Assembly: GCA_003599865.1 (NCBI GenBank)
Contig: QZKS01000079.1
Location: forward strand, 62,001 to 126,000
Direction of reading: 5' to 3'
DNA: 64,000 bases
Origin: Desulfobacteraceae bacterium
Lineage (GTDB): Bacteria > Desulfobacterota > Desulfobacteria > Desulfobacterales > SURF-7
The notes under the pieces are model-generated. The model saw only the letters and a program-made list of their open reading frames with translations. It did no database searches and was not told where the DNA came from. Positions within the stretch are counted from its first letter, which is position 1. Every line of letters starts with the position of its first letter. Shown here in pieces: positions 25,309 to 41,341 of the stretch. A program made the translations under genes and the position numbers.

Positions 25309-26004
25309 GTGAACAACAGCGAATTCGCGGTCCGTCTCACGGACGTGAAGAAAAAGTACCTGATGGGGAAAGTGGAAGTAGAGGCTCTCAAAGGCGTATC
25401 CCTTCAAATCCCCATTAAAAAATTCAATGTCATCATCGGCCCTTCCGGAAGCGGCAAAACCACACTGCTGAATCTGCTGGGTTGCATTGACATTCCGTCT
25501 TCAGGATGCGTGGAGGTCTGCGGTCAGGACATCGCCCGATTGAGCGATAAGCAGGCATCGGACTTCAGGGCGGAGAATATTGGTTTTATCTTTCAGAATT
25601 TCAATCTCATCCCGGTGCTGTCCGCCTATGAAAATGTGGAATATCCCCTGCTGCTGATGAAAAAACCGGCAAAAGAACGCCGGGAACTGACCTTAAAAAT
25701 GCTCCATGACGTTGGCCTGTCCTCACATAAACATCATCGACCGAACGAATTGAGCGGCGGGCAGCGGCAGCGGGTCGCCATTGCCCGAGCGCTGGTAAAG
25801 GGGCCGAAACTGGTGCTGGCGGATGAACCCACTGCCAACCTTGATTCCAAAACCGGGCAGAGCATCATTGATCTCATGTACAAAATGCAGGCCGAAAGCC
25901 ATACCACTTTTATTTTCTCCTCCCATGACAAACAGGTCATGGAACATGCGGAAAAAGTGTTTGAAATTCACGATGGTCTGCTCATGGAAGAGAGGGGGAA
26001 ATAA
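25309..26004 (+). CDS. ABC transporter ATPase, LolD/MacB type
   Basis: The 231-residue ATPase has Walker [10 protein letters not shown], signature [15 protein letters not shown], Walker [13 protein letters not shown] and the H-loop SSHD. It belongs to the LolD/MacB/FtsE group, whose partners are FtsX-type permeases that extract lipids or lipoproteins or drive periplasmic work by mechanotransmission. It starts a four-gene plus-strand operon: ATPase, permease, LolA-like protein, outer-membrane barrel. The start is GTG behind GAGGAGA. Confidence 0.9.
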
Positions 26005-26005
26005 G

Positions 26006-27406
26006 ATGAAAACGCTGCATATTGCTTTCAGGAATATTTTCCGGAACAGCCGTCGTTCCCTCATGACCATTCTTGCCATTACCGTCAGCGCCGTTGCCGT
26101 TCATCTGTTCGGAGGGTATGTGGCCAATATCGTTTACGGAATGCAGACCAACTATGTATGTGATAACGGTCATTTGCAGGTATATCAGGAAGGTTTTTTC
26201 GATTACGGCGCAGGGAATCCGGCAGCCTATGGAATCAGCCGTTACCAGGATCTCATAAAGCTGATCACCCAGGATCCGCAATTGAAAGACCATATAACGG
26301 TTGCGACCCCCATCCTCAAATTCTACGGTATTGCCGGAAACTTTAAAAAAGATGCATCCAAGACGTTTTTCGGGATCGGGTATGTTCCTTCGGATCTGAA
26401 AAAAATGAGGAAATGGAACGACTATAACATGAAGATACGGAAATCCCGCCTGAATCGAATCGTGCTTTCCGATGACGACATCGACGGCGGAATCATCGGT
26501 GAAGGAATGGCCAGGATGCTGTTGCTGTGCGAGGAACTGAACGTAAAAAACTGCAAAGGAAAACTGCCGGAAAAGAGCGATCAAAAACCTGCTGCCACGG
26601 AAGATTTCAGTTTTCTGGAAGAATCAAATGGATTGAATGATATTCCTGAAAGCACGGACAAACGCCCCAGGCTCGACCTTCTGGCAGCCACTGCAGCAGG
26701 CGCTCCCAATATTGTCACCATGTATGTCAACAATACGGAAGTCCAGGGGGTAAAAGCCCTGGATGACAATTACGCGGCCATGCATATTTCTCTGGCCCAG
26801 CGTCTTCTTTATGGAAAAGGGGAGAAAAAGGCCACCGGCATCGTCATCCAGCTCCGGCACACAAAGGATATCCCCTTTGTCAAAGCCCGGCTGGAAAAAC
26901 TTTTTGATGAAAACAGACTGAATCTGGAATTCAAAGATTATACCCAGATCGTCCCCATGTACCGCCAGGTCATCTCCTTTTTGTTCGCTCTTTTCAGCTT
27001 TATTGCAACGATCATGGGCGTGATTGTGCTGTTTACCATCATCAATACCATGACCATGAGCGTCATGGAACGGGTGGATGAGATCGGGACCATCCGCGCT
27101 CTGGGTCTGCGGCGGAGCGGAATATTGGGCCAGTTTATCGCAGAGGGACTTTTGCTGGGCGTTCTGGGAGCTACCCTTGGTACGGTTGTATCCGTGATTG
27201 CCGTAACCGGAATCAATTCAGCCGGAATTATGTGGACGCCTCCCAATTATGTGGATCCGGTACCCCTGAAAATTATGGTTTTCCTGAATCCCTTTTTAGC
27301 ACCTGGCTGCTGGCTGGGGCTGGTACTGCTGGCAGTGGCATCATCGATCTTTCCGGCAAGAAAAGCAGGAAAGATGGTGATCGTGGATGCGCTCAGACAT
27401 GTTTGA
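26006..27406 (+). CDS. ABC transporter permease, FtsX/LolC type
   Basis: This 466-residue inner-membrane protein has one N-terminal membrane segment (SLMTILAITVSAVAVHLFGGY), a large periplasmic domain of about 250 residues, and three C-terminal segments in the FtsX domain with VMERVDEIGTIRALGL before the fourth. This is the LolC/E-MacB topology. ATG 26006 follows the ATPase stop by 1 nt. The periplasmic domain contains a low-complexity insert (about residues 190-225), unusual for LolC. Confidence 0.88.
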   Translation: MKTLHIAFRNIFRNSRRSLMTILAITVSAVAVHLFGGYVANIVYGMQTNYVCDNGHLQVYQEGFFDYGAGNPAAYGISRYQDLIKLITQDPQLKDHITVATPILKFYGIAGNFKKDASKTFFGIGYVPSDLKKMRKWNDYNMKIRKSRLNRIVLSDDDIDGGIIGEGMARMLLLCEELNVKNCKGKLPEKSDQKPAATEDFSFLEESNGLNDIPESTDKRPRLDLLAATAAGAPNIVTMYVNNTEVQGVKALDDNYAAMHISLAQRLLYGKGEKKATGIVIQLRHTKDIPFVKARLEKLFDENRLNLEFKDYTQIVPMYRQVISFLFALFSFIATIMGVIVLFTIINTMTMSVMERVDEIGTIRALGLRRSGILGQFIAEGLLLGVLGATLGTVVSVIAVTGINSAGIMWTPPNYVDPVPLKIMVFLNPFLAPGCWLGLVLLAVASSIFPARKAGKMVIVDALRHV

Positions 27407-27471
27407 TAAACCGGCTGCCGGTTGTCCGGAGATAGAATTATATTTTCCTGAATTTCGATGAGGAGGAATCC

Positions 27472-28248
27472 GTGAAACAACTATTGATCCTGATTCTGAT
27501 TGCATTCCTGCCGGTTGCATCCATTGCCGGGACTGCCAACAAAACCGCAGATGAAATCGTGGCTGCTTCGGATGCGGTGCGCAATCCCGGAAAACCATTC
27601 AGCCTTTCGGTTTCCCTGCTGGAATACCGGGAAGGCAGTTTACAGGATAAAATGCTCCTGACCGTGTATTCCAAGGCCGATCAGAACAGCGGACAATACC
27701 GCAGCCTGATCCGTTTTATTGAACCGCTTCGGGATGAAAACAAGCTCATGCTGAAAGATGGAAACAACCTTTGGTTTTTTGATCCCGAATCCAAATCCAG
27801 CATCCGCCTCTCTCCCCAGCAGCGTCTGATGGGACAGGCATCCAACGGAGATGTCGTGACCGTCAATTTTCATAAAGACTACAAAGCGACCATGGAAAAC
27901 GAGGAAACGATCACAGACGCAGACCGGAAACAGCGGAAATGTTATAAGCTCAATATGATGGCGCTCAACGAAACCGTCACCTATTACCGCATCGAATACT
28001 GGGTGGATACGGAAAATGACCAGCCTGTAAAGGGAAAATTCTATTCCGAAAGCGAGCGTCTGCTCAAAATAGCCTATTACCGGGGATATAGAGAAGAACT
28101 GGGGAAAATACGTCCCACGGAGATGATCATCATAGATGGTGTGGACAACAAACTGGTCACAAAGATGAACTACAGCCATTATCAGTTTCGTGAAATCCCC
28201 GAGGATTGGTTCCAGAGAGAATATCTGCCGAGATTCAAAGGGGAATAA
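27472..28248 (+). CDS. LolA-like outer-membrane lipoprotein-sorting protein (COG2834 type)
   Basis: This 258-residue protein has a signal peptide (MKQLLILILIAFLPVASIAG) and a LolA/LppX-like beta-sheet domain with the typical LWFFDPESKSSIRLSP and Y.DY segments. It should carry a hydrophobic ligand across the periplasm between the ABC machine and the outer-membrane partner. GTG start behind GAGGAGG. The family name is recognised; the ligand is unknown. Confidence 0.75.
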   Translation: MKQLLILILIAFLPVASIAGTANKTADEIVAASDAVRNPGKPFSLSVSLLEYREGSLQDKMLLTVYSKADQNSGQYRSLIRFIEPLRDENKLMLKDGNNLWFFDPESKSSIRLSPQQRLMGQASNGDVVTVNFHKDYKATMENEETITDADRKQRKCYKLNMMALNETVTYYRIEYWVDTENDQPVKGKFYSESERLLKIAYYRGYREELGKIRPTEMIIIDGVDNKLVTKMNYSHYQFREIPEDWFQREYLPRFKGE

Positions 28249-28249
28249 A

Positions 28250-29701
28250 ATGATTCGGGTCTGGTACGGATTCCTTACGGCAGCGTTTTTGCTGTCGATC
28301 CTATTCATCCCTTCATCGGCCTTGTACGCTCAGCAGGATGACGATCTGGATCTGATTCCCGACAATGTGCTGTCTCAACCCCCGGAAGAAGCTTCCGAAG
28401 CCCTGCCGGAAACGTACCGGTTCAAAATCTATCTGGATGAAGCCGCCACTGCCAATATCAGACGAAAAAACCTCGTGGTTCCCGTGCCGTCTTCGGACGA
28501 TTCCGACTGGAATAACCGCCTCAGCCTGGATGCAAAGACGGAAATCGATCTTTTCTCGAACCTGTCGTTTATCATGGCGGATCGTCTGCATTACCTTCTG
28601 GAAGAAAACCAGGAAGAATCCGGGGGCAGGGTACAGAATGATCTTAAGGAACTCTATGTTACGGCAAATTCCTATCAGTTCCTCTATCTGGATATCGGCC
28701 GGGTCAATTTTAAAAACGGAGTGGCCGTCGGTTTCAATCCAACCGATTACTTCAAGAAAAACGCCGTGAGTTACCGGATTTCGGAAGATCCGAACCTTCT
28801 GCGGGAGAACCGGCTGGGTGTTGTGATGGCACGGGCTCAGGGAATCTGGGAAAAAGGAACTGTCACGCTTGCGTTTGCCCCTGAAATGAACCAGGATCAG
28901 GACAGATGGTGGACAGATGATGGAAGTTACGGGTTGAGGCTGGATAAAACCAACCGTTCCAACCGAACCCTGTCAAAGATTACCTTGAATGCTTTTCCGG
29001 ATTTCAATCCTGAATTTCTCTATTTTTATGACTCGGACCGCTCCTACTTTGGAACCAATCTCACCAAGGGGATCGGGGATTCCGCAATCGTCTATCTGGA
29101 ATGGAGTGGAAGCAGCAGGCCCGATATCTTTGCCCAATCCCTGACAGAGGCACAGGAATCCGGAATCATTCCTTTCAACAGTTTATGGGTGATGGATTCC
29201 GGGAGGGAATCCCATTTCCGGAATCAACTGGCGATTGGATTTTCCTATACGGAAAAAGTCAACCGTACCACTTTTGTAGAATACCACTTCAATGAAGCAG
29301 GCTTTTCACAAGAGGATTGGGACAACTGGTTCAGAACCGGCAAAGAGGCCGGAACTCTTTTGCAGAATCCAGCCACAGAGGCTTTGGGTCTTGGAATGCT
29401 GGGACAGTTGTGGACAACCAGAAAATGGTCACAGGAAGCCCAGGAACCTCTCAGCCGGCATTCGATTTTCATCCGAACATTCTGGGAGGATGCGATCATC
29501 CATTCACTGGACCTCACCGGCATCACCCGGATCAACCTGTCGGACGGCAGTTTCTTTGCCCAGCCAATGGCGGAATACCACATCAAAAAAAATCTGACCC
29601 TGAGCCTGTGCGTCAATCTTTTCATGGGATCGGATGAAACCGAATACGGTTCGGTAGATCCTCTGGGAGATGTCAAGGCAGGTGCGACCTATTATTTCTG
29701 A
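28250..29701 (+). CDS. Predicted outer-membrane beta-barrel protein
   Basis: This 483-residue protein has a signal peptide (ending ALYAQ), alternating amphipathic strands, and a C-terminal Phe (GATYYF) of the kind recognised by the BAM complex. I do not recognise a named family. Its start is 1 nt after the LolA-like stop, so it is probably the outer-membrane endpoint of the same pathway. ATG 28250 is chosen because the signal peptide begins there. Confidence 0.7.
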   Translation: MIRVWYGFLTAAFLLSILFIPSSALYAQQDDDLDLIPDNVLSQPPEEASEALPETYRFKIYLDEAATANIRRKNLVVPVPSSDDSDWNNRLSLDAKTEIDLFSNLSFIMADRLHYLLEENQEESGGRVQNDLKELYVTANSYQFLYLDIGRVNFKNGVAVGFNPTDYFKKNAVSYRISEDPNLLRENRLGVVMARAQGIWEKGTVTLAFAPEMNQDQDRWWTDDGSYGLRLDKTNRSNRTLSKITLNAFPDFNPEFLYFYDSDRSYFGTNLTKGIGDSAIVYLEWSGSSRPDIFAQSLTEAQESGIIPFNSLWVMDSGRESHFRNQLAIGFSYTEKVNRTTFVEYHFNEAGFSQEDWDNWFRTGKEAGTLLQNPATEALGLGMLGQLWTTRKWSQEAQEPLSRHSIFIRTFWEDAIIHSLDLTGITRINLSDGSFFAQPMAEYHIKKNLTLSLCVNLFMGSDETEYGSVDPLGDVKAGATYYF

Positions 29702-29787: not shown

Positions 29788-31056
29788 CTATTCGGACCGT
29801 AGTGCGGCGATCGGGTCCATCTTTGCTGCCGTATAGGCCGGATACAGTCCAAAGAACAGGCCGACGACAATCGATGTGAGCAGGGGCACAACGAGTGCAA
29901 GCATGGTAACGGTCGTATTCCATTTTGCGATTGCTGAAATCAACCATACGCCTCCAAAACCGATTAAGATTCCGATTATGCCGCCCGTAAACGTCAGCAG
30001 GGTCGATTCAGCCAGAAATTGAAGGATGATATCCGTGCAGGTGGCGCCGAATGCACGCCTGATCCCGATTTCTTTCGTTCTCTCCGAAACCGTGGCCAGC
30101 ATGATGTTCATGATACCGATGCCGCCGACGATCAGAGAGATAAAGGCGATGCTGCCGAGCACTACGTTGAATGTCCTTTGTATCTTTTTTGATTGATTCA
30201 GGAGTTCTTGAGGTACGATAATTTGATAATCTTCAGCGCCGCCGTGTGCGATCTCCATAATTCTTTTCACCGCAGGAACGGCTCTGAGCACCTGTTTCTC
30301 GTCATTCACCGCAATGATCAACTCCGTAACCTCGGGATCGGCAAGGGCGCCATAGGGTGTGCCGGTGCTGCTTGCCAGGTTTGCCACCGCAAGCGGAACA
30401 AAAATCATATCGTTGTAATTGCGCAGGCGGATGGCGCCTGACTTTCCTACTTTGCTCTCCAACCGCTGTAAAACGCCGACAATTTTAAAGAGGGAATCCT
30501 CGATGCGCAGGTAATTCCCGATCCGACCGAGGGCCCCCATGCTGCCGGCCACACCATGGCCGATAACGCAGACAAGTTTGCTCTCCTGCATGTCCGGATC
30601 GGAAATAAAGCGGCCGCTGCCAATCGGTATCTTCATCAGGGTTGCATAATTGGGAGTGCATGCAGCGATAAGCGGTGTGACCTCCTTCATCGTGCTAAAT
30701 ACGGAAGCCTTCAATTCTCTAAGGCCGGCTGCATCCTGCACATCAGGGCACCCCTTTTGAATTCGGTGTGCATCGGTGAGGGAAAGACCCCGGGAAAGAT
30801 TTGCGCGAAACTTTGCCTGCTGCATCTCCGTCAGAGGGACGGCTTTTACATAGATATTACGGGTACCGAGTCGTTCTATTTGTGCGAGAGACTCGCGCTT
30901 GGCGCCCTCGCCGACTGAAAGCATTGAAAACACGGCGGCAACACCACAAACGACTCCGAGGATGCTCAGCGCAGCCCGCAGCTTGTGCTGCAGCAGTGAC
31001 TTGACAGCCAACTGAACGAATTTAAACAGCCTGCTGTTTACTCGCAGATGCTTCAT
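29788..31056 (-). CDS. MacB-type ABC transporter permease
   Basis: The protein of about 422 residues has an N-terminal segment (LRAALSILGVVCGVAAVFSMLSVG), a periplasmic MacB-PCD domain, and C-terminal FtsX segments with TVSERTKEIGIRRAFGAT. It forms the inner-membrane part of a tripartite pump with the ATPase, HlyD-like adaptor and TolC-like channel just upstream. The start is uncertain between ATG 31056 and ATG 31071; both overlap the ATPase gene, implying coupling. Its end faces the barrel gene across an 86-nt convergent gap. Confidence 0.9.
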   Translation of the reverse strand: MKHLRVNSRLFKFVQLAVKSLLQHKLRAALSILGVVCGVAAVFSMLSVGEGAKRESLAQIERLGTRNIYVKAVPLTEMQQAKFRANLSRGLSLTDAHRIQKGCPDVQDAAGLRELKASVFSTMKEVTPLIAACTPNYATLMKIPIGSGRFISDPDMQESKLVCVIGHGVAGSMGALGRIGNYLRIEDSLFKIVGVLQRLESKVGKSGAIRLRNYNDMIFVPLAVANLASSTGTPYGALADPEVTELIIAVNDEKQVLRAVPAVKRIMEIAHGGAEDYQIIVPQELLNQSKKIQRTFNVVLGSIAFISLIVGGIGIMNIMLATVSERTKEIGIRRAFGATCTDIILQFLAESTLLTFTGGIIGILIGFGGVWLISAIAKWNTTVTMLALVVPLLTSIVVGLFFGLYPAYTAAKMDPIAALRSE

Positions 31057-31741
31057 CAACCCGCCTGCCATCTTTTAAATAAATGATTCTGTCGGCAACC
31101 GACGCCACGTTACGGTCATGGGTGACCATTACAATGGCTGCGCCGCCGGCGTGCAGTTTTTTGAATATCTTTAATATTTCCAAACCGGTGCCGGAATCGA
31201 GATTTCCGGTCGGCTCGTCCGCAAGCACCAGCAGGGGGTCGGCGCATATGGCCCGCGCAATGGCCACACGCTGCATTTCGCCCCCGGAAAGCTCGGACGG
31301 TTTATGCTTCACCCTTTCGCCAAGCCCCACTTGAGCGATGGAATCCATGATTTTTTCTTTTATTTGTAAATGCTCGCAGGAACGGTACAGAAACGGCGCC
31401 TCGATATTTTCATAGACGGTTAAGCCCGGCAACAGGTTGAACGTCTGAAAGATAAAGCCGATTTTGTTTGCGCGGATGTGCGAAAGGTCGTCATCCGAGG
31501 CAGCAATGATATCGACGCCGTTCAGCCGATAGCTGCCGGATGATGGCCGCTCCAGGCACCCGAGGATATGGAGCAGCGTGGTCTTTCCGGAACCCGACGG
31601 CCCCATGATCGCGACGAACTCACCCCGATGCAGCCTGAGATCGATGTTTTCCAGGATCTTCAGCGTTGAAGATCCGACATGGAAGCGCTTGCATATCCCG
31701 AGAGCCGCAATCAGGTGTGGTTCATTGTTTTGTTTCATCAC
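31022..31741 (-). CDS. MacB/LolD-type ABC transporter ATPase
   Basis: The 239-residue ATPase has Walker [10 protein letters not shown], signature [15 protein letters not shown], Walker [13 protein letters not shown] and H-loop VTHD. It overlaps both neighbours: its start lies within the 3' end of the adaptor gene and its end within the permease gene, so the three are one translationally coupled unit. Confidence 0.92.
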
Positions 31742-33020
31742 CGTCCGTTCTGATCAGGCTGACCCTGTCGCCGTTTTTCAATCCGGCAACGATCTCGGCA
31801 TAATCCTCGTTCTGCCGGCCGATCTCCACCCTGATCTTCTCTACCTTGGGTCCCCTGCCGACATAACAGTAAGTGTTTGCGCCTTCGCTGAACACGGCCT
31901 GCACCGGTACGGCAAGGACGTTCTGGGCGGCATCGGTATGCAGGACCACCCGGGATGTCATGCCTGGCCTCAAGCCGGGGTTATCGCCATGGACGGCGAC
32001 GACCACCTGGAAATATTTTTCCCCTTTGTCTGCTCCGCCGCCACTGGCCAGCACCCCGATAGAAGCCACCTCCCCGGCAAGAACCAGTTTGGGATAGGCG
32101 TCGACCTGAATGGAAGCCTTCTGCCCCTTTGTGACTTTGTGCAGATCGACCTCGCGCACAAGGGTTTTAACGATCACAGAAGAGATATCCGGCAGATAAA
32201 GCAGCGGCTGGCCTTGCCATACAGTGTCCCCTGCCCGCGGTTTCCTTTTCTGATTGTCCCGCTGCGTTTCGTAGTGTACGACGATTCCCGGAAACGGCGC
32301 ATGGATGACGGCCTTGCCGAGCTCCTCTCTGGTGTTCTCCAGGGCGATTTTCGTTGTTTCAATTTCGTTTTTGGCTTTTGCCATTTCCGCCATCGCCGCG
32401 GCAATTTTAAAAACGCTTTCCTTGTTTATCTGCTCAAACGAGGTTTCATACCGCTGCTGTTTGGCAAATAACTGCTCCGCCTTTTTCTTTGCCTGGAAAA
32501 TTTCATTTGGATAGTGCAGCCCCTTTTTGCCCAGATCTTCCATATCACGGATGTAGGATACATACCGGCTGTATTCCTGCATCGCGTCTTTCAGGTCAAA
32601 TTCGGCGGCCTTGATGGCGCCTTCGGCCTGGCTCTTTTCCCAGGCGAGTATCTGCTTTCTGGCTTCAAAAGACGCTTCCCGGCTGCGCAGTTCCCCTTCC
32701 AGACGCAGGATTTCCGCCTCGAAATGGGCGGAATCGAATTTGATCAGGACGTCCCCCTTTTTGACAAGCGTCCCCTCGTCAATGATATGGGCGATCTTCC
32801 CGTTGTCCCCCTTGATAGTCGAGGAGACGATGTATGAACGTTCGGCATCGAGGGTGCCGATCGTGTGGACTGAAATGGCAAAGCTGACGGTTTTTGCCGC
32901 AGTCAGCTGCGTATCGGCATCGGTGTGAGCGGGCGGAACGAGGCGCACACCGGCCCATGCCACGACCATCGCAGCGGCCGCAATCGCTATCCATTTGCCG
33001 GTTTTCTTCTTGTTGATCAT
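31722..33020 (-). CDS. HlyD/MacA-type periplasmic adaptor (membrane fusion protein)
   Basis: The 432-residue protein has an N-terminal membrane anchor (WIAIAAAAMVVAWAGVRLV), a lipoyl-like segment, a long coiled-coil hairpin (about residues 105-230), and beta-barrel/membrane-proximal domains. This is the RND/MacA adaptor plan. Its ATG directly follows the stop codon of the TolC-like gene. It links the MacB-type pump to the outer-membrane channel. Confidence 0.9.
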   Translation of the reverse strand: MINKKKTGKWIAIAAAAMVVAWAGVRLVPPAHTDADTQLTAAKTVSFAISVHTIGTLDAERSYIVSSTIKGDNGKIAHIIDEGTLVKKGDVLIKFDSAHFEAEILRLEGELRSREASFEARKQILAWEKSQAEGAIKAAEFDLKDAMQEYSRYVSYIRDMEDLGKKGLHYPNEIFQAKKKAEQLFAKQQRYETSFEQINKESVFKIAAAMAEMAKAKNEIETTKIALENTREELGKAVIHAPFPGIVVHYETQRDNQKRKPRAGDTVWQGQPLLYLPDISSVIVKTLVREVDLHKVTKGQKASIQVDAYPKLVLAGEVASIGVLASGGGADKGEKYFQVVVAVHGDNPGLRPGMTSRVVLHTDAAQNVLAVPVQAVFSEGANTYCYVGRGPKVEKIRVEIGRQNEDYAEIVAGLKNGDRVSLIRTDGDETKQ

Positions 33021-34484
33021 TCAGTTTCTCGGTACCAGCACGCCCAGAATAGCCTTCATGTTATAAATGCCGATGGCAAAGTCGATTTCTGCGGCCAGCA
33101 GGTTGCCGCGCGCGCTCTGCAACTCCTTTTCTGCTTCGATAACATCGAAGTTATCGGCCATTTGGTGCGCAAATTTAACTTCCGCCAGGGCGATTTTTTC
33201 TTCCCCCTGTTTGATCTGTGCTTTCCTTATCTCCATCCGCTTCAGCGCCTCCTGCAGCGACAGCCACTGCTTGCGCACCTGCCGGCTGATGTCCTCCTTT
33301 TTACTTTTCATGTTCAGCCGGAGAGTTTTGATGACGATGAGGCTCTGCTGATAGGCGGCCCTTTCGGCTGTCCGGAATATGTCGGTATCCGTCTGCAGCA
33401 GCACGAGGTAACGATCCAGATCCAGGCTTGTCGATTGCCCGAAGGTGTCCGCCTCGGCATACCGATCATAACCCATGACCAGGTTGAGATCCGGCAGGAT
33501 ATTGTGCTTTGCGACGGCGGCTTTTCGTTCGGCCTCGGCCATGTCCTGCTCCAGCTGCTCTATTTCGATCCTTTTTTTCAGGGCGGTGTCGACGGCGTCC
33601 TCCCGTGACAATTCCCGGAAATCGGGCGCCTCCGGAAAAGTCACCTCGAGTTGCGTATGTTGCGGGAGGGCCAGAATGAGCTTCAATCTGTCTTTGGCAT
33701 CCTGAAAGGCTTCCGACGCCGTAATCATGGCATCCTGAACCTCCTTGAGGGGTATTTCCGCCCGGTATGTGTCCATCGGCGTTGCCAGCCCGACTTTCTC
33801 CTTGACGCGCGCAATTTCGGAATGCCCTTTCAGGCGCGCCTCCATGTTTTCAAACAACCGCAGCAGCTCCACCTGGCGGATGGCGTCGTAGAAAGTGGCG
33901 ATTGTCTCCAGAACCGTGTTGACCTTTGTCTGATATACGTTTCGCAGCGATGTTTGATACGCCGCGTCGGCGCTCTGCACGCTGTCGGTCGTGATCTCCT
34001 CCCCCCTGCCGCGCAGGAGGGGCTGCATTACCGTAATCCCCATCCCCGTGGTATAATACTGCCTCGACTCCCAGGAAGATTGGGTGATCTGAGGACCCAT
34101 CGATATCGTTGTGCCGGATTCCAGTTTTTTCTCAGCCCGGAGCCCGGCGGAATAATAATTGTAGTCCGTATGGTCCCCGCCCGTAAGACGGACGCCGCCG
34201 GTCGAAATGAGTTTTAAATCGAACAGTGCACGTGCCGCATCGATCGAATAGCGCCGGCTTTCGGCGTTGTATTGTGAACTGGAGATGCCGCGGTTCGCCT
34301 GCATGGCAAGATTGACCGCCTGGTCGAGGGTCAGAACTATTTTTAGCGGCTGGTCTGCGCCACTTCGTGTGTCGACCTCGGGCGCGGCGGCAAAGGCGAT
34401 CCCCGCAACAAAGAAAATAACAGTAACTATGAAAAAGGGGGGAGGAAAAAACTCCCCCCTTTCGGCTGATTTCGGTTGTTTCAT
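33021..34484 (-). CDS. TolC-family outer-membrane efflux protein
   Basis: The 487-residue protein has two OEP repeats with long helices and TolC-like regions (LDQAVNLAMQANRGI, SLQEALKRMEIRKAQI). The signal peptide is odd: RGEFFPPPFF precedes the hydrophobic core, encoded by an 11-bp stem-loop resembling a terminator. ATG 34484 has no ideal ribosome site; a TAAGG...CCTTA dyad lies directly before it. No start codon is available in frame after the hairpin before the signal sequence. Confidence 0.9.
   Translation of the reverse strand: MKQPKSAERGEFFPPPFFIVTVIFFVAGIAFAAAPEVDTRSGADQPLKIVLTLDQAVNLAMQANRGISSSQYNAESRRYSIDAARALFDLKLISTGGVRLTGGDHTDYNYYSAGLRAEKKLESGTTISMGPQITQSSWESRQYYTTGMGITVMQPLLRGRGEEITTDSVQSADAAYQTSLRNVYQTKVNTVLETIATFYDAIRQVELLRLFENMEARLKGHSEIARVKEKVGLATPMDTYRAEIPLKEVQDAMITASEAFQDAKDRLKLILALPQHTQLEVTFPEAPDFRELSREDAVDTALKKRIEIEQLEQDMAEAERKAAVAKHNILPDLNLVMGYDRYAEADTFGQSTSLDLDRYLVLLQTDTDIFRTAERAAYQQSLIVIKTLRLNMKSKKEDISRQVRKQWLSLQEALKRMEIRKAQIKQGEEKIALAEVKFAHQMADNFDVIEAEKELQSARGNLLAAEIDFAIGIYNMKAILGVLVPRN
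34432..34462 (-). terminator. Terminator-like hairpin within the 5' end of the TolC-type gene
   Basis: Read on the minus strand, AAAGGGGGGAG and CTCCCCCCTTT form an 11-bp perfect stem with a 7-nt loop, and T residues follow. It lies about 22 nt inside the TolC coding region and about 65 nt after the stop of the 656-residue lipoprotein gene. It could terminate upstream transcripts or act as an attenuator. Confidence 0.65.
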
Positions 34485-34526
34485 TAAGGAAATATTTACC
34501 TTAATAATAACTCCTGGGCATCCCGG

Positions 34527-36497
34527 TCAGTTGCAGATGCACTGATAGTAAGGGCCGCCGGAGGTTACGGTGTCTGTGCCGCCGTTATACGAGCCGCTCG
34601 GGCAGTTGCCACAGCGGGTGGGAACTAAAAATCCGACCATCGCTGGATTGCCCGTCCCGCAACTGTAAACCTGGTTAAAAGAGGCAGCGCATTCGTCACT
34701 GACGGAGCTGCTCGACGAGTCGTCCCCGCCCCCGCCGGACAATCCCACGGCCAGTCCGGCCGCAACCGCCGTACCGCCGATAACGGTTGGAAGCACCCAG
34801 CGCGGCATGCCGGGGGCGGCCGGGTCGGGCGGCGGTCCGGGGTCGGCCACCGGCTCGATCGGCTCCGCCAAATCAAACGCCTGGTTAGCCTGGGCGATGC
34901 ATTCCATCGGTTTGCATTGCGGCCATTGAAAGGGTTCGAGTTTGTTCAGCACCTGATCGTAATAGACCATCGTGCTCAGCTGCGCCATGTTGTCGTAAAT
35001 CGTATACACGGAATAGGCCGTGAGAAGTACCGCCGGAACGGGCCCCAAGGGCGCCAACATGGCCGATTCCGGGAGTAATTCCGAGACCCCGGTAGAGACC
35101 AGGTTTCCCATAAAACGGGTAGCTTCCTGTGCAGCCGGCTCACCATAGGTCGAGGCATACGCCTCGATCAAGTCCCCTGAAGAATAACCGCCCAGCACAC
35201 CGGACAAACTATCGATCGTGGACAGTTCCGACAGCCCCTGCCCGATGGAGACGAGGGAAAAGGGATTGGACGCGCGTTCGGCAGTTGTCGAAGAGGCAAG
35301 ACTGACGACTTGCTGAACTTTCAAAGCCTGCAGCGCCCACGGCGGCATCGATGTCAGCGGGCCGGGTTTATCCTGCTTCTGGAGGTCCAGGGTCTTGCGT
35401 ATATCTAGCAGGGGAAAAACCGGTTTGCCGTCAAGCCCGGCCAGAAATGCCGTTTCCTGAACCTGCAGCGTCTCATCGCCTTTTAACGCGTCAAACGCAG
35501 ATGCCATTTGATACATGCGATGATCTTCCGGCGAGTAGACCAGTACCCCTTTGTACATGCCGGAGAAAGAACCGTTGTCGGCCGACATTGCCGTCGGAAA
35601 GAGATCGATCTTAAAAACATCGCTGTATGTTCGAATTAATAGTGCCGGCATACCCGGTGGAAGGACTATTTTCTCGACATCGAAATGAAATGCCAGTTTC
35701 CGCGGCAGGTGGGTTCTCAGCAGATTTAACGATATTTCCTGATTCCATGTCCCCTCCATACGGGGGTTTTTCTCCACCTGCTTCATTATCTGGTTGATTA
35801 CCTTTTCGGTCAGGTCGAACCCCCCGGTGCTGAAGGATACTTCTTCGCTGATCGGATTCCGGCTGAACCGCACCGGGCCGTAAATAACTTCCTTCTTTTG
35901 CCGAGGCGCATTCGGAGAAACCCTTTCCTGCGTCCACAATTCATAATCGACGCTGCTGCCGCCCGAAGTTTTCAATACGGCCAGAGAGCCGGCGGTCGAC
36001 AAACCGGCCGGCGGTAGGTTGGCGCCGCCGAAAATCACCGTTTGAAACAGCTGGTAATCATCACGCGTCGCTTTTCCGGTTGCCGCGGCGGGACTCGCAA
36101 CATCGCCTGCCGAAACCACCGAGAAAGCGTGACGGCCGGAAACCACGTATCCATTGCGGTCGTAGTTGTAATAGGCTCTGGCTTCGTATTGGCCGGGTGA
36201 AGGTGCATCAAAGGTCAGGAAACCCTGCCCCAGCCCCTGCGGCATGTATTGATAATCGTCTGCATCCGTATCCGGAGTGCCCGCCGGTACGATACAGATC
36301 CAATCGCCTTCGTTGCCGGGCGAATTGGAAAAATTAACCTTGATCTTTTCACCCTCCCGATAGGTGTCTTTGTCGGTGCTCAAAACGGCTGCGCTTTCAA
36401 CCGGCATCTCCGGCAGCGGGGCCTGATTGCCGGCACACCCGGTCAGCATCAATAACAGCCCAGCCACTATGGCCGTCTTTACGTTTTTTACCTGCAT
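34527..36497 (-). CDS. Large lipoprotein of unknown function
   Basis: This 656-residue protein has a signal peptide with lipobox LTGC. A beta-rich Ig-like domain (about 40-130: YREGEKIKVNFSNSPG) follows, then a long middle region I do not recognise. Near the C-terminus is a hydrophobic glycine/alanine-rich segment (VLPTVIGGTAVAAGLAVGLS), a Gly-Asp-Ser linker and a Cys-rich tail (six Cys including CGNC and CIC). ATG 36497 has GAGGAG at proper spacing; ATG 36503 is too close. It precedes the TolC-HlyD-ABC genes on the same strand. Confidence 0.7.
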   Translation of the reverse strand: MQVKNVKTAIVAGLLLMLTGCAGNQAPLPEMPVESAAVLSTDKDTYREGEKIKVNFSNSPGNEGDWICIVPAGTPDTDADDYQYMPQGLGQGFLTFDAPSPGQYEARAYYNYDRNGYVVSGRHAFSVVSAGDVASPAAATGKATRDDYQLFQTVIFGGANLPPAGLSTAGSLAVLKTSGGSSVDYELWTQERVSPNAPRQKKEVIYGPVRFSRNPISEEVSFSTGGFDLTEKVINQIMKQVEKNPRMEGTWNQEISLNLLRTHLPRKLAFHFDVEKIVLPPGMPALLIRTYSDVFKIDLFPTAMSADNGSFSGMYKGVLVYSPEDHRMYQMASAFDALKGDETLQVQETAFLAGLDGKPVFPLLDIRKTLDLQKQDKPGPLTSMPPWALQALKVQQVVSLASSTTAERASNPFSLVSIGQGLSELSTIDSLSGVLGGYSSGDLIEAYASTYGEPAAQEATRFMGNLVSTGVSELLPESAMLAPLGPVPAVLLTAYSVYTIYDNMAQLSTMVYYDQVLNKLEPFQWPQCKPMECIAQANQAFDLAEPIEPVADPGPPPDPAAPGMPRWVLPTVIGGTAVAAGLAVGLSGGGGDDSSSSSVSDECAASFNQVYSCGTGNPAMVGFLVPTRCGNCPSGSYNGGTDTVTSGGPYYQCICN

Positions 36498-36503
36498 CTG
36501 CAT

Positions 36504-36798
36504 CTCTCCTCAAATAATCCGTCGGTTTGTCTGATCCGAGCGTTTACATAAATCCAATACCCATTGTAACGAACCGCTCCTCTTCGAATACTAGCATCTA
36601 TTTCATAATCCGTTCAAGATCAACAGTTATGTGAGCCGGAGGCAGCCGCCTTTCCGGCATGCCGGCATGGTTTTGAAGCCGCCAAATTGCTTAAGATGCC
36701 GCCGGAATAAGCAATTCTTTTCGAATCGGGTTGCGCCATCCTGAGCTTGACGGCTTCAAAAAAAACAGACAAATTGGCGGGGACGTATCGGTTTCAGG
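36504..36798. other. Non-coding gap with weak dyads
   Basis: No gene is seen in these 295 nt. An inverted repeat AATTGCTTA / TAAGCAATT (36685-36693, 36708-36716) and a CCGGCATGCCGG palindrome are present. The stem has T residues only on the plus-strand side, so it is a poor terminator for the minus-strand gene upstream. Confidence 0.5.
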
Positions 36799-37854
36799 TT
36801 ACATCCAGCCGTCGGTGAGACGGTCTTTCAGCTTGTCGGAGAGGTAGCCTTTCCACCTGCCGGTTGCGATCACCTTTGCATCTGCGGCGGTTATGCCCTT
36901 GCCTCTCAGAAGGTGGAAGCCGGTCTGAAGCTCGGAATCGGAAAACGGGCTTTCTCCCAGCCCTATCTCGGTCCCCTGCCTTGTCACCTTATTGAGGTCG
37001 TTCATGATCGCATGGTAATCGCCCGGGCCTTCGTTGGCCAGCGTTCCTACCAGCCGATTCGGGTCGATGGCCTGGAAGAGATTGCCCGTGAATTCGTTCA
37101 TCTTGTCCACGTAATCGATCATGAGTTCGGCGTTGCGGGCACTGGCGGGAAGGGCGCCTTTGATCACGTCCTTTACGATGTCCTTTACCGAGTCCCTGGC
37201 CGCCTCCTGCACATACTCCGCGCCCGACTTCATGATGCCGTCCTGCAGAGCAGAGGTTTCCGTAGTGAGGGGTTGGGAAAGCTGTCCCACTGACGGATCC
37301 GAAGGCTTTACAACGGGATTACCCGGCATGCCGAAAAAGGGCGTACCCTGGCCCTGACCGGGTAAGCTGAACACGTCGTCGAGGCTCTTGGACATTTCCT
37401 CGTCTCTTCCATCCCAGAAGCTGCGGAGCTTTCCGGCAGAGTCAAGCCTCTGCCTGCGCTGCTCTTCGGCGAGTCTCTTCTGCTCGGCCTCGACCATCGC
37501 CCTGGCCGCCTCTTCATAGGCGCGCTGCTGTGAATCGTCGCTGAAAACGGCCTGAAGGAGCGATCCCACGACCACATCGGTGACCATGGCATTCATCGCT
37601 GCAGAGTGATTCACCTTGGGCTTTGCCACGGCTTTCTGCGGCAGCGTGATCTTCTTCTTATACGTATCTATCGTGCTGACGCCGGGAGACGACCGGTCGA
37701 CTTTCTGGCCGGCCACATCTTCGAGTTGGCCCAGTGCACTGGTGCCCTGGTTTCCCGAGTCGAACTTCGAAGGCTCCCCGCTCAAGCCCGGTGTCGACAG
37801 CCCAAGAATCAGGATTATGGCCAGTGCCATCTTTATTCGGATGCCATCTCTCAT
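36799..37854 (-). CDS. Exported coiled-coil protein of unknown function
   Basis: This 351-residue protein has a signal peptide (MALAIILILGLSTPGLS) and no lipobox. A charged helical stretch (about residues 113-140, EEAARAMVEAEQKRLAEEQ) is a likely coiled coil. A Pro/Gly-rich linker (LPGQGQGTPFFGMPGNP) and a helical C-terminal half follow. I do not recognise the family. AAGGAG lies 9-14 nt before ATG 37854. It sits 31 nt after the TPR gene in the same run. Confidence 0.65.
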   Translation of the reverse strand: MRDGIRIKMALAIILILGLSTPGLSGEPSKFDSGNQGTSALGQLEDVAGQKVDRSSPGVSTIDTYKKKITLPQKAVAKPKVNHSAAMNAMVTDVVVGSLLQAVFSDDSQQRAYEEAARAMVEAEQKRLAEEQRRQRLDSAGKLRSFWDGRDEEMSKSLDDVFSLPGQGQGTPFFGMPGNPVVKPSDPSVGQLSQPLTTETSALQDGIMKSGAEYVQEAARDSVKDIVKDVIKGALPASARNAELMIDYVDKMNEFTGNLFQAIDPNRLVGTLANEGPGDYHAIMNDLNKVTRQGTEIGLGESPFSDSELQTGFHLLRGKGITAADAKVIATGRWKGYLSDKLKDRLTDGWM

Positions 37855-37885
37855 TGGATCATCTCCTTCACGCGATTCGACCGCA

Positions 37886-39463
37886 TTATTTCAGCTTGTC
37901 CAGCTCGGCGCGGGCTTCCTGCGTCAGACCGGCATCAAGAGCAACCGCGTTCTCGATGTCCTGGCGAGCCTTGGCATGACGGCCGAGCGCAGCGAGGCAG
38001 CGCCCCCTGGCCAGATGCGCCTCACCGTCGTTTGGTGCCAGGGCGACCGCCTGATTCAGTATTTTCATTGCCTCTTCGTTGCGGCCGGCAGCCGACAAGG
38101 CAGAGCCATATGTGATATAGCCCCAGGCTTGGACCGGATCCAGCTTGAGGGCCTGTCTGCTTTCCGACAAGGCTTCGGCGAACTTTCCTCTGGTCATGTT
38201 GATATTGGCCCTGACCAGCAGTGCGGTAGCTGTTTTCGGTTCAAGGGTCAATGCGTTGGTGCTGTCCTCGAAAGCACGATCGAGGGAGCCTGCCTTCAGA
38301 CGCGCGAATGCCCGGATCGCATATGCCGTGGCCGAGGTTTTGGCCGAAAGGGATGCGGTGCAGTCGTCGGCCGCCTGATCGTACCTGCGGAGCAGAACGT
38401 AGGTAAGCGCCCTGTCGAGCAGTACTCCGGCATCGCCGGGCGCTGCCTCCACAGCCTTGTCATACGCGGCAAGTGCCTTTGTCAGCTCGCCCTTTTCACG
38501 ATAGGCCTTTCCAGCGAAACGCTGAAACTCCGCATTGCCGGGTGCGATCATGGCGCCGCTCTCGGCATATCCGGCAAGCGCGTCAAAATCGCCCAGCACG
38601 ACCGATGCCTGGCAGGCAGTGTAGAAGGGCCTGATGTCATGCGACCCCAGAGCGATGGCCGTGTAGGCGTCCTTTGCCGCGTCTTCCCATTTGCCGCCCT
38701 GTGCCAGCACTTCTGCCCGCGCAATGTACGGAGCTACCGCATGGGGCTTGAGCATGAGCGAAGCGGTGAAGTCTTTTGCGGCATTGCCGAGCTTGCCCGA
38801 TCCTGCGTATGCTCTCCCCCGGTGGTAAAAGGCCTCGGCCGATTCCCCGTTCAGCCCTATGCTCTTATCCAGGTCTGTCCTCGCCTTCTGCCACATGCCC
38901 TTTTCGACATAGGCACGCCCGCGGTTCAGAAGGGCGCTCGTATCGTTCGGTTTGAGGGCAAGGGCGTTCGTGTAAAGGTCTATGGCATTGTTCCAGTCGC
39001 GCATCTCCCTGTATGCGATCCCCTGGACGTTCAGGGCGTCGTAAAGATTGGGGTCGATCCCGGCGGCGATCCGTGCATCGGAGAGGGCCCGGGACCAGCT
39101 GCCCTTGAACGAGTGAATCCATGCACGCTCCATGATGATGCGCGCATTGTCCGGGAATCGTGCGACCGCCTCGTCGGCCTTCTTCAGTGCGGAATCGCTC
39201 TCCCCCAGCATTCGCATAGCCTGGAGCTGGTACACTATGGGCACCGGGTCGGATGCATTCTTCCGGACTGCATCGGTCGCCGCCGCCATGAGTTCCAGCC
39301 AGCGGCCCTCATCTGCAAGCGCGGCAAGGTCGGCCTTGATCGGCTCGTCTGGAGCTTGTCCGGACGGCTCTTCGGCCCAGGCAGATGCCTGAACCGTGAC
39401 CAGCCCGAGAGCATACATTCCGGCGACAAGGGCTATAATGAAAACAGCGGTTTTATTGCGCAC
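37886..39463 (-). CDS. Exported TPR-repeat protein
   Basis: The protein of about 525 residues has a signal sequence (FIIALVAGMYALGLVTVQASAWA) and roughly a dozen tetratricopeptide repeats, for example DALNVQGIAYREMRDWNNAIDLY and SALLNRGRAYVEKGMWQKARTD. It is predicted to be a periplasmic scaffold. The start is GTG 39463 with GAGGGA 7 nt upstream; GTG 39478 would share GTGA with the upstream stop. The gene is strongly GC-rich compared with the dcw genes (38 of 60 bases in 38881-38940). Confidence 0.8.
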   Translation of the reverse strand: MRNKTAVFIIALVAGMYALGLVTVQASAWAEEPSGQAPDEPIKADLAALADEGRWLELMAAATDAVRKNASDPVPIVYQLQAMRMLGESDSALKKADEAVARFPDNARIIMERAWIHSFKGSWSRALSDARIAAGIDPNLYDALNVQGIAYREMRDWNNAIDLYTNALALKPNDTSALLNRGRAYVEKGMWQKARTDLDKSIGLNGESAEAFYHRGRAYAGSGKLGNAAKDFTASLMLKPHAVAPYIARAEVLAQGGKWEDAAKDAYTAIALGSHDIRPFYTACQASVVLGDFDALAGYAESGAMIAPGNAEFQRFAGKAYREKGELTKALAAYDKAVEAAPGDAGVLLDRALTYVLLRRYDQAADDCTASLSAKTSATAYAIRAFARLKAGSLDRAFEDSTNALTLEPKTATALLVRANINMTRGKFAEALSESRQALKLDPVQAWGYITYGSALSAAGRNEEAMKILNQAVALAPNDGEAHLARGRCLAALGRHAKARQDIENAVALDAGLTQEARAELDKLK

Positions 39464-39474
39464 GAAAATCTCCC

Positions 39475-40815
39475 TCACTGTTCCTGCCTCCTCGCCGCAA
39501 CCTCCTGCTTGATAGCGCCAAGGACGGGCTTGAGCACCTCGATGCGCTGGCGGCAGAGGATCGACAGCTCCCTGTCGGGCCCAGGGTCACCCTCGTCTTT
39601 TTCCACTTTTGTCTGGGCCCGGTCCTTGGCCCGCTCGGCCTGCTCGTTCAAATCGAGGATCGACTTCTCGATCCGGATCACCAGGCCCAGCAGCGTGCTC
39701 CGGCTTTCTTCACGCAGGAGCTTTTCCAGAGAGCGGTTTTTCGCTTCGAGCAGGATGCCGTTGCTCCAGCGTAAGTTGTCCGCCCGTCCAGGGTCGGTGA
39801 GGTCCGGGGTGTCGATGAAGTCTTCCAGGGGCGGCTCCTCGACCACGCGCACAGCGATTCGTGAAGGTGCGCCGTCTTCCATGAGCGTGCTCACGGTCGT
39901 GAGCTTCCGGGTATTCCTCAGGTAGCCGTTCACCGGAACCCAGCCTCCGCTCTCGCCGCGCCGGGCAACCACAACCTGTGCATACGGCTTCGTGCCGCGG
40001 TCAGGCTTCTCCTGAAACAGCATGGCGACAAAGGAAACCGGCCGGCCGCTCTCCTGTGAAATCGACGGTGCAAGAAAACTCCAGTAGGTTTGTCCGTCTA
40101 TGGAGACTTCCCGGAAGTGCGATCGTCTCGCCTTATGGGCTGCCTCCAGCGAGGCGGTGTCGGCCGAGCGCAGGCTTTGTACGATCGCCTCAACCATGAT
40201 GTCTCTGTTATAGGCGCCGAACTTCTTTTGTGGAGCATACGGTTCCCCGGACAGCGGGATGCCCAGCAGAACCGTGTCGCGGGGCAGATCAGCCTGGCCC
40301 GGTACCGGAAGGCTGCCAAACGGGCTTAAGAGGCTCACCCAGGTCGCGAATTCAACATCGAAGTTTACGTTCTTGTTTGCCATGCTCTCTCCGAGGGCAT
40401 CGCGCACGTCTGTCGTAACCTTATGGCTCGTGACAGCCGTTCCGGGGAACGGGATGATGCCCACCGTGAAAGCACTCAGCATTGCCGCACGGTTCAGTCC
40501 GCTTGAATCATGCTTTATCTCGGCCTTGACCATGATCGGCAGAGCTGTCCAGTCGTCGGAAAAAAGCTCGGGGTACAGCACCTGGGCACGTTCCTGCAGT
40601 TGCCGGGTGGTGAGGCGATACTCTTCCATGCCCGGGATGGGTTCTTCATAGACATCGGTATAGCTAATGATGCTGAAGCGGGCCTGGCCGAGCTTGAGCT
40701 GCGTTTCGCCACCGGGTTTCAGGGTGCTTGCTACCCGCTGCGAGGCGCACCCGCTCATGAACATGCATATCAGGATTATCCCCGCCCATTTTACAGATAC
40801 ACGGAATGTATTCAT
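39475..40815 (-). CDS. Lipoprotein of unknown function
   Basis: This 446-residue protein has a signal peptide with lipobox MSGC, a mixed alpha/beta body, and a charged helical C-terminus (about 385-446) likely to form a coiled coil. No known family is recognised. ATG 40815 is chosen for its position at the signal peptide, with GGGGTG upstream; ATG 40851 would add a non-signal extension. It is the first gene of the eight-gene minus-strand run. Confidence 0.65.
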   Translation of the reverse strand: MNTFRVSVKWAGIILICMFMSGCASQRVASTLKPGGETQLKLGQARFSIISYTDVYEEPIPGMEEYRLTTRQLQERAQVLYPELFSDDWTALPIMVKAEIKHDSSGLNRAAMLSAFTVGIIPFPGTAVTSHKVTTDVRDALGESMANKNVNFDVEFATWVSLLSPFGSLPVPGQADLPRDTVLLGIPLSGEPYAPQKKFGAYNRDIMVEAIVQSLRSADTASLEAAHKARRSHFREVSIDGQTYWSFLAPSISQESGRPVSFVAMLFQEKPDRGTKPYAQVVVARRGESGGWVPVNGYLRNTRKLTTVSTLMEDGAPSRIAVRVVEEPPLEDFIDTPDLTDPGRADNLRWSNGILLEAKNRSLEKLLREESRSTLLGLVIRIEKSILDLNEQAERAKDRAQTKVEKDEGDPGPDRELSILCRQRIEVLKPVLGAIKQEVAARRQEQ

Positions 40816-40923
40816 TGCCACCCCTCTCCTTTTTTTCAGGGGGCCTGTCATTTTACCGCCCTCTGTCCCGGATCTACCGGTATTTTCAAGCTGGTTGCGT
40901 TTCTCTTCTTATTGCTTGGCCGC

Positions 40924-41226
40924 TCATTTCAAATCCGTCATGGTCATTACATTCTGATTCAGAATGACGGAAATTTTTTCCTGGGTAACCGTCAGATCAT
41001 AATGACTTTGCAGGTTCATCCAGCTTTGGGCATCGGTATCAAAAAATTTGGCCAGTCTAAGGGCTGTATCCGCTGTAATAGACCTTTTCCCAGACACGAT
41101 TTCACCGATCCGGCGTTGGGGGACGCCGATGGATTTGGCCAGACGGTACTGGGTTATTCCCATGGGTTTCAGGAAGTCTTCCTGAAGAATTTGTCCCGGA
41201 TGAACCGGTGGCATTTGTCTTTTCAT
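40924..41226 (-). CDS. higA: HigA-type antitoxin (orphan)
   Basis: The 100-residue helix-turn-helix protein has the HigA hallmarks PPVHPGQILQEDFL, QYRLAKSIGVPQRRIGEIV and GKRSITADTALRLAKFF. HigA antitoxins bind HigB mRNase and repress their own operon. ATG 41226 has AGGAG 8 nt upstream. The partner higB directly upstream has lost its middle, so this antitoxin is probably an orphan. A fragment of a second higA copy lies at 42829-42955. Confidence 0.9.
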   Translation of the reverse strand: MKRQMPPVHPGQILQEDFLKPMGITQYRLAKSIGVPQRRIGEIVSGKRSITADTALRLAKFFDTDAQSWMNLQSHYDLTVTQEKISVILNQNVMTMTDLK

Positions 41227-41238
41227 ATTCACGCTCCT

Positions 41239-41341
41239 TTAATGGTAATCGACAATTTCAACTGCATAGGCATTGCCTTCGCGCCACTCGAAGCATATCC
41301 GCCATTTTTTCCGCTTCTTTACTTTTAAAGGAAATAATCAT
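41239..41341 (-). pseudogene. higB: higB toxin remnant with internal deletion
   Basis: The minus strand reads the HigB N-terminus MIISFKSKEAEK (41341-41306), then one extra base, then the HigB C-terminus WRICFEWREGNAYAVEIVDYH and a stop at 41239. The roughly 90-residue family length is reduced to 34 codons, and the junction is out of frame. The toxin should be dead. Confidence 0.8.

Follow-up and report, generated by a model that had tools for sequence, protein, structure and literature searches.

A stretch of 64,000 nucleotides from a Desulfobacteraceae bacterium (assembly GCA_003599865.1, contig QZKS01000079.1, positions 62,001 to 126,000), hereafter called the window, carries eight envelope protein genes at positions 29788-40815, all on the minus strand. 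The genome comprises 5.0 Mb in 100 contigs. The eight genes are probably two adjacent, independent units. Unit A (36799-40815) encodes the lipoprotein LP458, an exported TPR protein and an exported helical protein, and unit B (29788-36503) encodes the lipoprotein LP658 and the four proteins of a pump, with LP658 as the proposed cognate partner or cargo of the pump. An earlier reading of this DNA, made from its letters alone (the sequence-only reading), had recognized the eight same-strand genes correctly and had joined them into one system.

Unit A was traced by scanning an LP458 alignment against one genome per species (84,980 species), and 17 loci were found in 14 assemblies. By title, two of these assemblies are Syntrophaceae, one is Desulfobacterales, one is Lentisphaerota, and the rest are Deltaproteobacteria. 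The lipoprotein, TPR and helical genes were placed together in eight of the 17 loci, i.e., L091, L093, L094, L096, L098, L100, L102, and L106. The TPR and helical genes of L102 are on the opposite strand, and the lipoprotein of L106 is represented only by its end within the contig. Among the other nine loci, a contig end lies near the lipoprotein in L092, L095, L101, and L107, and L097 holds three lipoproteins with a piece of the helical gene on the other strand. No such TPR/helical pair was seen in L099, L103, L104, and L105. The context is limited by length in L095, L101, L104, and L105 (below approximately 7.1 kb) and in L103 (7.9 kb). Tandem variants of the lipoprotein, two to four in number, were found in several genomes, with four in L091, and the unit A proteins of the window are homologous over their length to those of L091. 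Unit A is a self-standing three-gene module, independent of the pump.

Among 116 relatives, no genome except the window's own had LP458, and for the helical protein there were just two weak partial matches elsewhere. The three genus mates encode neither protein. Of 297 genomes in the phylum, six others hold LP458 relatives. Three of them belong to a single distant family (f104), with 66-73% identity and a second copy in tandem in every case; one has a 35% relative, and in the last two only the N-terminal half is related. The gene order in two of the f104 genomes (G243 and G316) is lipoprotein, lipoprotein, TPR, helical protein, and in the third (G358) the contig ends inside the TPR gene. These three contigs are those behind L093, L094, and L092 and are not additional to the 17 loci. 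In their stretches (66 kb) the single pump match by tblastn was a 25% ABC ATPase, approximately 11 kb from the module in G243.

Absences were judged by tblastn, since greedy open reading frame (ORF) calls miss true frames in G+C-rich loci, e.g., LP458 in L098-L100. In the 17 unit A loci (226 kb, several cut by contig ends), no TolC, adaptor, MacB permease or LP658 was found, and the sole match to a pump query was a 25% ABC ATPase in L102, approximately 7 kb away. Likewise, neither LP458 nor the helical protein was found in 39 pump loci (480 kb, several cut by contig ends), which include close and more distant pumps. The sole TPR match there was weak and generic (22%, L138).

The block containing unit A matches L091 at 91-92% DNA identity. 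The alignment is in two pieces, as the helical gene of L091 contains an additional stretch. At one end the match continues for 2 bases after the last stop codon, at the other it reaches 17 bases beyond the first start codon, and nothing outside these limits aligns. At the protein level, the identity is 85% for LP458, 92% for the TPR protein, and 89% for the helical protein. The G+C content of unit A is 58-61%, with 70-73% at third codon positions, against 53-57% and 60-68% in unit B and 50.8% in the window overall. Because the DNA match of approximately 91% stops at the module's edges, unit A was probably acquired horizontally. For one gene that flanks the module in L091, the window's genome has only a 30% relative, which fits a large distance between the two genomes, but the pair may be paralogues. 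In a search for a transfer vehicle, no LP458 relatives were found in plasmids and viral contigs. An assembly artefact is unlikely as the source of the block, which is 91% and not 100% identical to L091 and is placed inside one 130-kb contig.

The eight genes share a strand, have short spacings save one gap, and all encode envelope proteins, and on these grounds a single export system could be proposed. Such a system is nevertheless very improbable, because the unit A loci lack the pump (17 of 17 without TolC, adaptor and MacB permease), the pump loci lack unit A (LP458 and the helical protein in 0 of 39), and the L091 match ends at the module's edges. The sequence-only reading had itself named homologues apart from ABC-TolC genes as what would speak against a single system, and by these findings, as far as the loci reach, that claim falls. 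In addition, a gap of 295 bp, which had gone unmentioned, separates the helical gene from LP658 and is taken as the border between the two units. The other spacings by ORF coordinates are a 4-base overlap between LP458 and TPR, 31 bp between TPR and helical protein, 42 bp between LP658 and TolC, and 0 bp between TolC and adaptor, and the adaptor/ATPase and ATPase/permease genes overlap. The pump genes thus overlap or abut, as had been stated. A possible hairpin in the gap (36504-36798) had a z of -2.7, and equal stability was reached in 2 of 200 shuffles.

Of the four unit B genes other than LP658, the identities proposed earlier, i.e., TolC, HlyD-type adaptor, ATPase and permease, were borne out by Pfam and NCBIfam. 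The permease contains the MacB periplasmic core and FtsX permease domains, both above the curated cut-off, and is encoded with the ATPase, adaptor and TolC-type channel (PF00005, PF16576, PF13437, and PF02321 above cut-off). The adaptor also reached 132.6 bits in TIGR01730 against a cut-off of 94.9. The pump of unit B is a MacB-type tripartite exporter. It is distinct from MacB proper, for which the NCBIfam equivalog has a cut-off of 966 bits; the ATPase scored 224.6 and the permease 163.6 bits, and the two are separate genes.

Of the 321 genomes of the order, 32 have a close adaptor (E≤1e-45). The window's family has eleven other members in this set, all of which lack it, so the pump, too, is patchily distributed. 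The nearest pump is in G511, a genome of another family, with 70-80% identity across the four pump proteins. In the permease tree the window joins G511 at 100/100, and the backbone was not resolved. Additional genes or parts were noticed in other pumps. A related pump has a TPR-GAF-cyclase gene between adaptor and ATPase (L081 4637-6928), and in two more distant pumps (L089 7872-9878 and L118 9707-11461) the adaptor frame has a long extra N-terminal part, sensor-like by eye.

Near such pumps a recurring protein was found, here called the companion. It is composed of a signal peptide, a conserved beta-like domain with a following stretch (approximately 150 residues in all), a Gly/Ala-rich helix, a poly-glycine run and a variable tail. 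The conserved N-terminal domain, read from sequence as a beta sandwich, includes a membrane-like helix. The precursors have 353-455 aa. The tail was lipocalin-like in 6 of 11 proteins scanned and Ig-like, DUF2135 or of further types in the others. Two copies stand in tandem in three clusters (L153, L154, and L155).

Model A8 represents the conserved part of the companions and was made from 11 sequences, taken from proteins beside pumps. At E≤1e-4 it matched 22 of the 321 genomes of the order. The match was strong (E<1e-30) in 18 of them and weaker in the other four (6.4e-7 to 9.4e-5). All 18 strong carriers were among the 32 pump genomes, and none was among the other 289 (Fisher p 3.7e-21). 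When the seven genomes that supplied model sequences were left out, 11 of 11 carriers had the pump (p 7.3e-14), and with the four weak matches included it was 18 of 22 (p 2.3e-17). The strong carriers span nine families. The companion gene and the pump are on different contigs in eight of the 18.

Position was considered in those pump loci, 18 in number, whose sequence ahead of TolC could be read for 1.5 kb or more. In ten of these, a signal-peptide protein with Gly/Ala helix and poly-glycine is encoded within 6 kb. Nine were recognized by script (L114, L137, L142, L148, L150, L153, L154, L155, and L160), and L115, where the script missed the adaptor, was read directly by eye. The same layout was present in 3 of 82 other ORFs (at least 200 aa) of these loci. 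In L154, TolC is last and the companion proteins are ahead of the adaptor. Of the eight loci lacking the layout nearby, seven (L081, L139, L144, L149, L152, L156, and L158) are in genomes that carry the family elsewhere, and one, L141, is in a genome without it. A helix/poly-glycine tail was also found 3 bp from TolC in G511, cut by the contig end, and G063 and G110 encode a protein of companion layout with a different first half. By eye, the proteins ahead of TolC in L114 and L142 have CsgG-like first halves and that of L081 an Ig-like one; in the two that were scanned, L114 and L081, Pfam did not assign these identities.

Several pump clusters of family f59 (L152, L154, L155, and L156) also encode caspase-like (C14) proteins ahead of the pump. 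Three of these caspase-like proteins have Glucodextran_B domains and a signal-peptide-like start. Among the scanned neighbours in f59 there are also proteins resembling CsgG and GNA1162, a PP2C phosphatase, and an FHA protein that carries a transglycosylase domain.

LP658 is composed of a lipobox, a beta-like domain near the N-terminus, a long unique middle, a Gly/Ala helix with poly-glycine from residue 569, and a six-cysteine tail. It therefore has the layout and place of a companion, i.e., the script rule applies at residue 569, the tail is separate, and the gene lies 42 bp ahead of TolC. The conserved beta domain was not recognized, as A8 had no match in the window's genome (G000) at E≤1e-4. 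LP658 is thus like the companions by layout and place but not by descent, and it may be a functional stand-in or local replacement for the companion family. The N-terminal domain, with little else, was found at 46-62% identity in family f102 and at 33-41% in the three genus mates. In the one genus-mate protein scanned (L043 6863-8083) this domain is fused to CsgG, and in another genome of the order (L048 7620-9533) it is fused to a VWA domain. No LP658 was found in the 39 pump loci by tblastn.

MacB takes its substrate in the periplasm and not across the inner membrane, and ejects it with MacA via TolC (PMC5985334). The enterotoxin STII reaches the periplasm by Sec and is a MacAB-TolC substrate (PMC5985334). 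The Aat system is proposed to export Aap or CexE likewise, after acylation by AatD (PMC7943197). By analogy, unit B would be a MacB-type exporter with a dedicated Sec-exported partner or cargo. The companions and LP658 would be brought to the periplasm by Sec, and LP658 would also be lipidated. As is known for MacAB-TolC and has been proposed for Aat, ATP hydrolysis in the cytoplasm would then move the periplasmic domain and push the periplasm-located substrate out through TolC. As the cognate partner or cargo of the pump, the companions or LP658 would have their variable tail delivered to the surface. The sequence-only reading had called the whole cluster a dedicated export or surface-assembly system. 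For LP658 and the four pump genes this is reasonable, since all 18 strong carriers have the pump and the companion layout is like that of LP658; unit A does not belong to it.

Three known systems were compared with unit B. MacAB-TolC (type VII ABC) shares the adaptor, the MacB core and FtsX permease, the MacB/LolD-type ATPase and the TolC-type channel in one operon. Here, however, ATPase and permease are separate and score much lower than the MacB equivalog cut-off, the operon starts with a lipoprotein gene, and related pumps are tied to an exported protein family. LolCDE has related permease and ATPase families and a lipoprotein encoded beside them, whereas TolC and adaptor are present here and the permease fits the MacB model far better than lolCE (5.8e-48 vs 3.8e-8). 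The third is Aat/Cex (AatPABCD with Aap or CexE), for which PMC7943197 describes a separate Lol/MacB-like permease and ATPase, an adaptor and a TolC-like channel, as here, together with a cognate protein exported by Sec whose gene may be close to the pump genes or distant from them. The same source places the Aat cargo gene no more than 1 kb from the pump in slightly less than one quarter of cases, a scatter that resembles that of the companion genes, and reports aatD apart from aatPABC in a quarter of Aat loci. No AatD-like acyltransferase was found among the eight genes of the window. The lipobox of LP658 is of the usual kind, and the protein is much larger than dispersin (10.2 kDa, PMC8277102).

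Several points weigh against a dedicated partner or cargo. The four weaker A8 matches, over part of the model, are in genomes without a close pump. The p-values overstate the association, because A8 was built from pump-adjacent proteins and the genomes are not independent, nine of the 18 carriers being of one family (f59). LP658 shows no homology with the companion family (hhalign probability 2.3% against model A7). It matches 7 of the 116 relatives and 10 of the 297 phylum genomes, its own included, and the others only over part. Because homology and a full-length relative are both lacking, the comparison with the companions rests on place and layout. Fourteen of the 32 pump genomes have no strong companion match. 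In nine of the 14, fewer than 650 bases or nothing is readable ahead of TolC, and G102 has 4.7 kb readable there and no companion. The other four are the window's genome with LP658, G511 with its cut helix/poly-glycine tail, and G063 and G110 with their proteins of similar layout. The companions are also far larger than the known cargo of the MacB family, which goes up to about 10 kDa (PMC8277102).

The missing homology and the 14 genomes without companion would fit an ordinary small-molecule or lipid exporter, with LP658 merely a co-transcribed lipoprotein, and other MacB relatives do export macrolides, siderophores and glycolipids (PMC5985334). This explanation is possible but rather unlikely. 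It leaves aside that all 18 strong carriers have the pump, that nearly nothing can be read ahead of TolC in nine of the 14 non-carriers, and that LP658 repeats the layout and place of the companions.

The size of the companions bears on another explanation. Because they are well above approximately 10 kDa, whole-protein export through TolC would be unusual, and partial or lipid-anchored delivery, or a subunit role, may apply instead. LP658 and the poly-glycine proteins could be a fixed subunit or sensor of the pump, periplasmic or membrane-anchored, which docks on adaptor or TolC while the cargo is something else. A subunit would account for the strict co-occurrence (18 of 18), and for the conserved N-terminal domain and its membrane-like helix, as well as a cargo would, and related Gram-positive pumps have the accessory membrane proteins YknW and AS-48E (PMC5985334). 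However, the C-terminal tails vary between proteins, some clusters hold two copies with different tails, and the gene is on another contig in eight of 18 genomes, whereas the parts of a machine are usually more uniform. A subunit of this kind is therefore considered doubtful, though possible.

The delivery of cargo can be put more specifically. The MacB-type exporter would bring to the cell surface a dedicated class of poly-glycine proteins that are exported by Sec and have interchangeable tails at the C-terminus; LP658 would be the version found in the window. This would be a secretion or display route distinct from Aat, and in some genomes it would stand among genes for caspase-like proteases, CsgG-like and GNA1162-like lipoproteins, and PP2C and FHA regulators. 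In this specific form the proposal is tentative and rather unlikely. The export of LP658 by the pump and its delivery to the surface are likewise inferred. No printed link between MacB pumps and poly-glycine proteins was found in the open-access literature that was searched.

The possible role of unit A was considered from LP458. All 28 aligned homologues have the lipobox cysteine, and in none is it followed by aspartate (two incomplete sequences were omitted from the alignment). By the sorting rule of E. coli, the lack of aspartate after the lipobox cysteine points to the outer membrane, so LP458 is predicted to be located there. The LP458 structure model, with a predicted local distance difference test (pLDDT) score of 86.6, shows an N-terminal alpha/beta domain, a beta domain and a three-helix bundle, and had no Foldseek match at E≤0.001. 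When the N-terminal domain was realigned to the Foldseek list, the Z scores were 8.0 for CsgG (157 residues), 7.7 for PqiC, 6.9 for FlgT, 6.7 for TraT, and 6.1-6.7 for LptE. These are envelope proteins, several of them ring-forming. The N-terminal half of LP458 may thus be like the outer-membrane lipoproteins CsgG, PqiC and LptE, which is suggestive only, as a Z of 6-8 may mean only a common arrangement. Compared with CsgG, PqiC, LptE and TraT, which its model aligns at Z 6.1-8.0, LP458 has an extra beta domain and helical bundle and no Pfam match. The C-terminal bundle was also compared with CorA/ZntB (Z up to 10.0), but unrelated helical bundles can also score this high, and the relation was rejected. 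The helical protein model (pLDDT 40.9) was not interpretable.

Because the lipoprotein occurs in several variants and is accompanied by a TPR scaffold and a helical exported protein, the most likely role of unit A is to form an assembly on the inner face of the outer membrane. In such an assembly the tandem-variant lipoprotein, the TPR scaffold and the helical exported partner would be joined. The range of the LP458 fold matches counts against this, as does the lack of a characterised relative for the unit A proteins. A defence system was considered and rejected. A PADLOC scan covered LP458, the helical protein, LP658, the adaptor, the permease and one poly-glycine protein, with the TPR protein, TolC and ATPase outside it, and only the permease matched, as the LolE-type transmembrane part of two models. 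Related lipoproteins were noticed in G192, where five (L040 11802-16622 and L041 1166-2335), four of them in tandem, share only the N-terminal half of LP458. They have another C-terminal half, and the tandem is near Lol-type permease and ATPase genes and an Omp85 gene.

The coordinates are collected in Table 1. Signal-peptide-like N-termini were found by a simple hydropathy rule in LP458, the TPR protein, the helical protein and LP658, and lipoboxes in LP458 (MSGC) and LP658 (LTGC), in agreement with the sequence-only reading. Its statement that no family beyond TPR is recognizable among these four also held. LP458 and LP658 had no Pfam match up to E=1, the helical protein had a single sub-threshold one (DUF4230, E 0.22), and none of the three had an NCBIfam match up to E=0.1. 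The TPR protein was identified by Pfam and NCBIfam, as were the four pump genes.

Table 1. Positions of the unit A and unit B features in the window
Feature	Positions	Strand	Remark
LP458, lipoprotein, first gene of unit A	39478..40815	-	446 aa from ATG 40815; start in ORF list 40851
Exported TPR protein, unit A	37886..39478	-	start may be 39463, where homologues begin
Exported helical protein, 351 aa, unit A	36799..37854	-	
Block approximately 91% DNA-identical to L091 (Syntrophaceae bacterium UBA6087), probably transferred	36797..40832	-	
Gap between unit A and unit B, 295 bp, long hairpin possible	36504..36798	.	
LP658, lipoprotein, 658 aa, unit B	34527..36503	-	
TolC-type outer-membrane channel, 487 aa	33021..34484	-	PF02321 5.3e-33
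Periplasmic adaptor (HlyD/MacA type), 432 aa	31722..33020	-	PF16576, PF13437; TIGR01730 above cut-off
ABC ATPase, MacB/LolD type, 239 aa	31022..31741	-	PF00005 1.9e-32
MacB-type permease, 427 aa	29788..31071	-	PF12704 4.2e-27, PF02687 7.9e-19

On either side of the two units, further genes were noticed. At 40924-41341, directly ahead of unit A, a HigA antitoxin gene was found, and upstream of it a broken HigB-like gene, recognized by eye, whose start and end are in different frames and whose middle is gone. A plus-strand cassette (25309-29701) converges on the pump. It encodes a LolD-like ATPase and an FtsX/LolE-like permease, both named by eye and by similarity to the pump genes, a LolA-like protein (PF17131), and a 503-aa exported protein without Pfam match, which may be a beta-barrel.

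The tempting eight-gene operon is thus corrected to two units. Unit A is a mobile group of three envelope proteins, and two of these have no Pfam family. As to unit B, few MacB-type pumps are known to move proteins, i.e., STII enterotoxin by MacAB-TolC and dispersin/CexE by Aat. The clade of this pump is present in all 18 genomes, from nine bacterial families, that strongly carry an uncharacterised exported family, which gives the pump a specific and testable partner or cargo.

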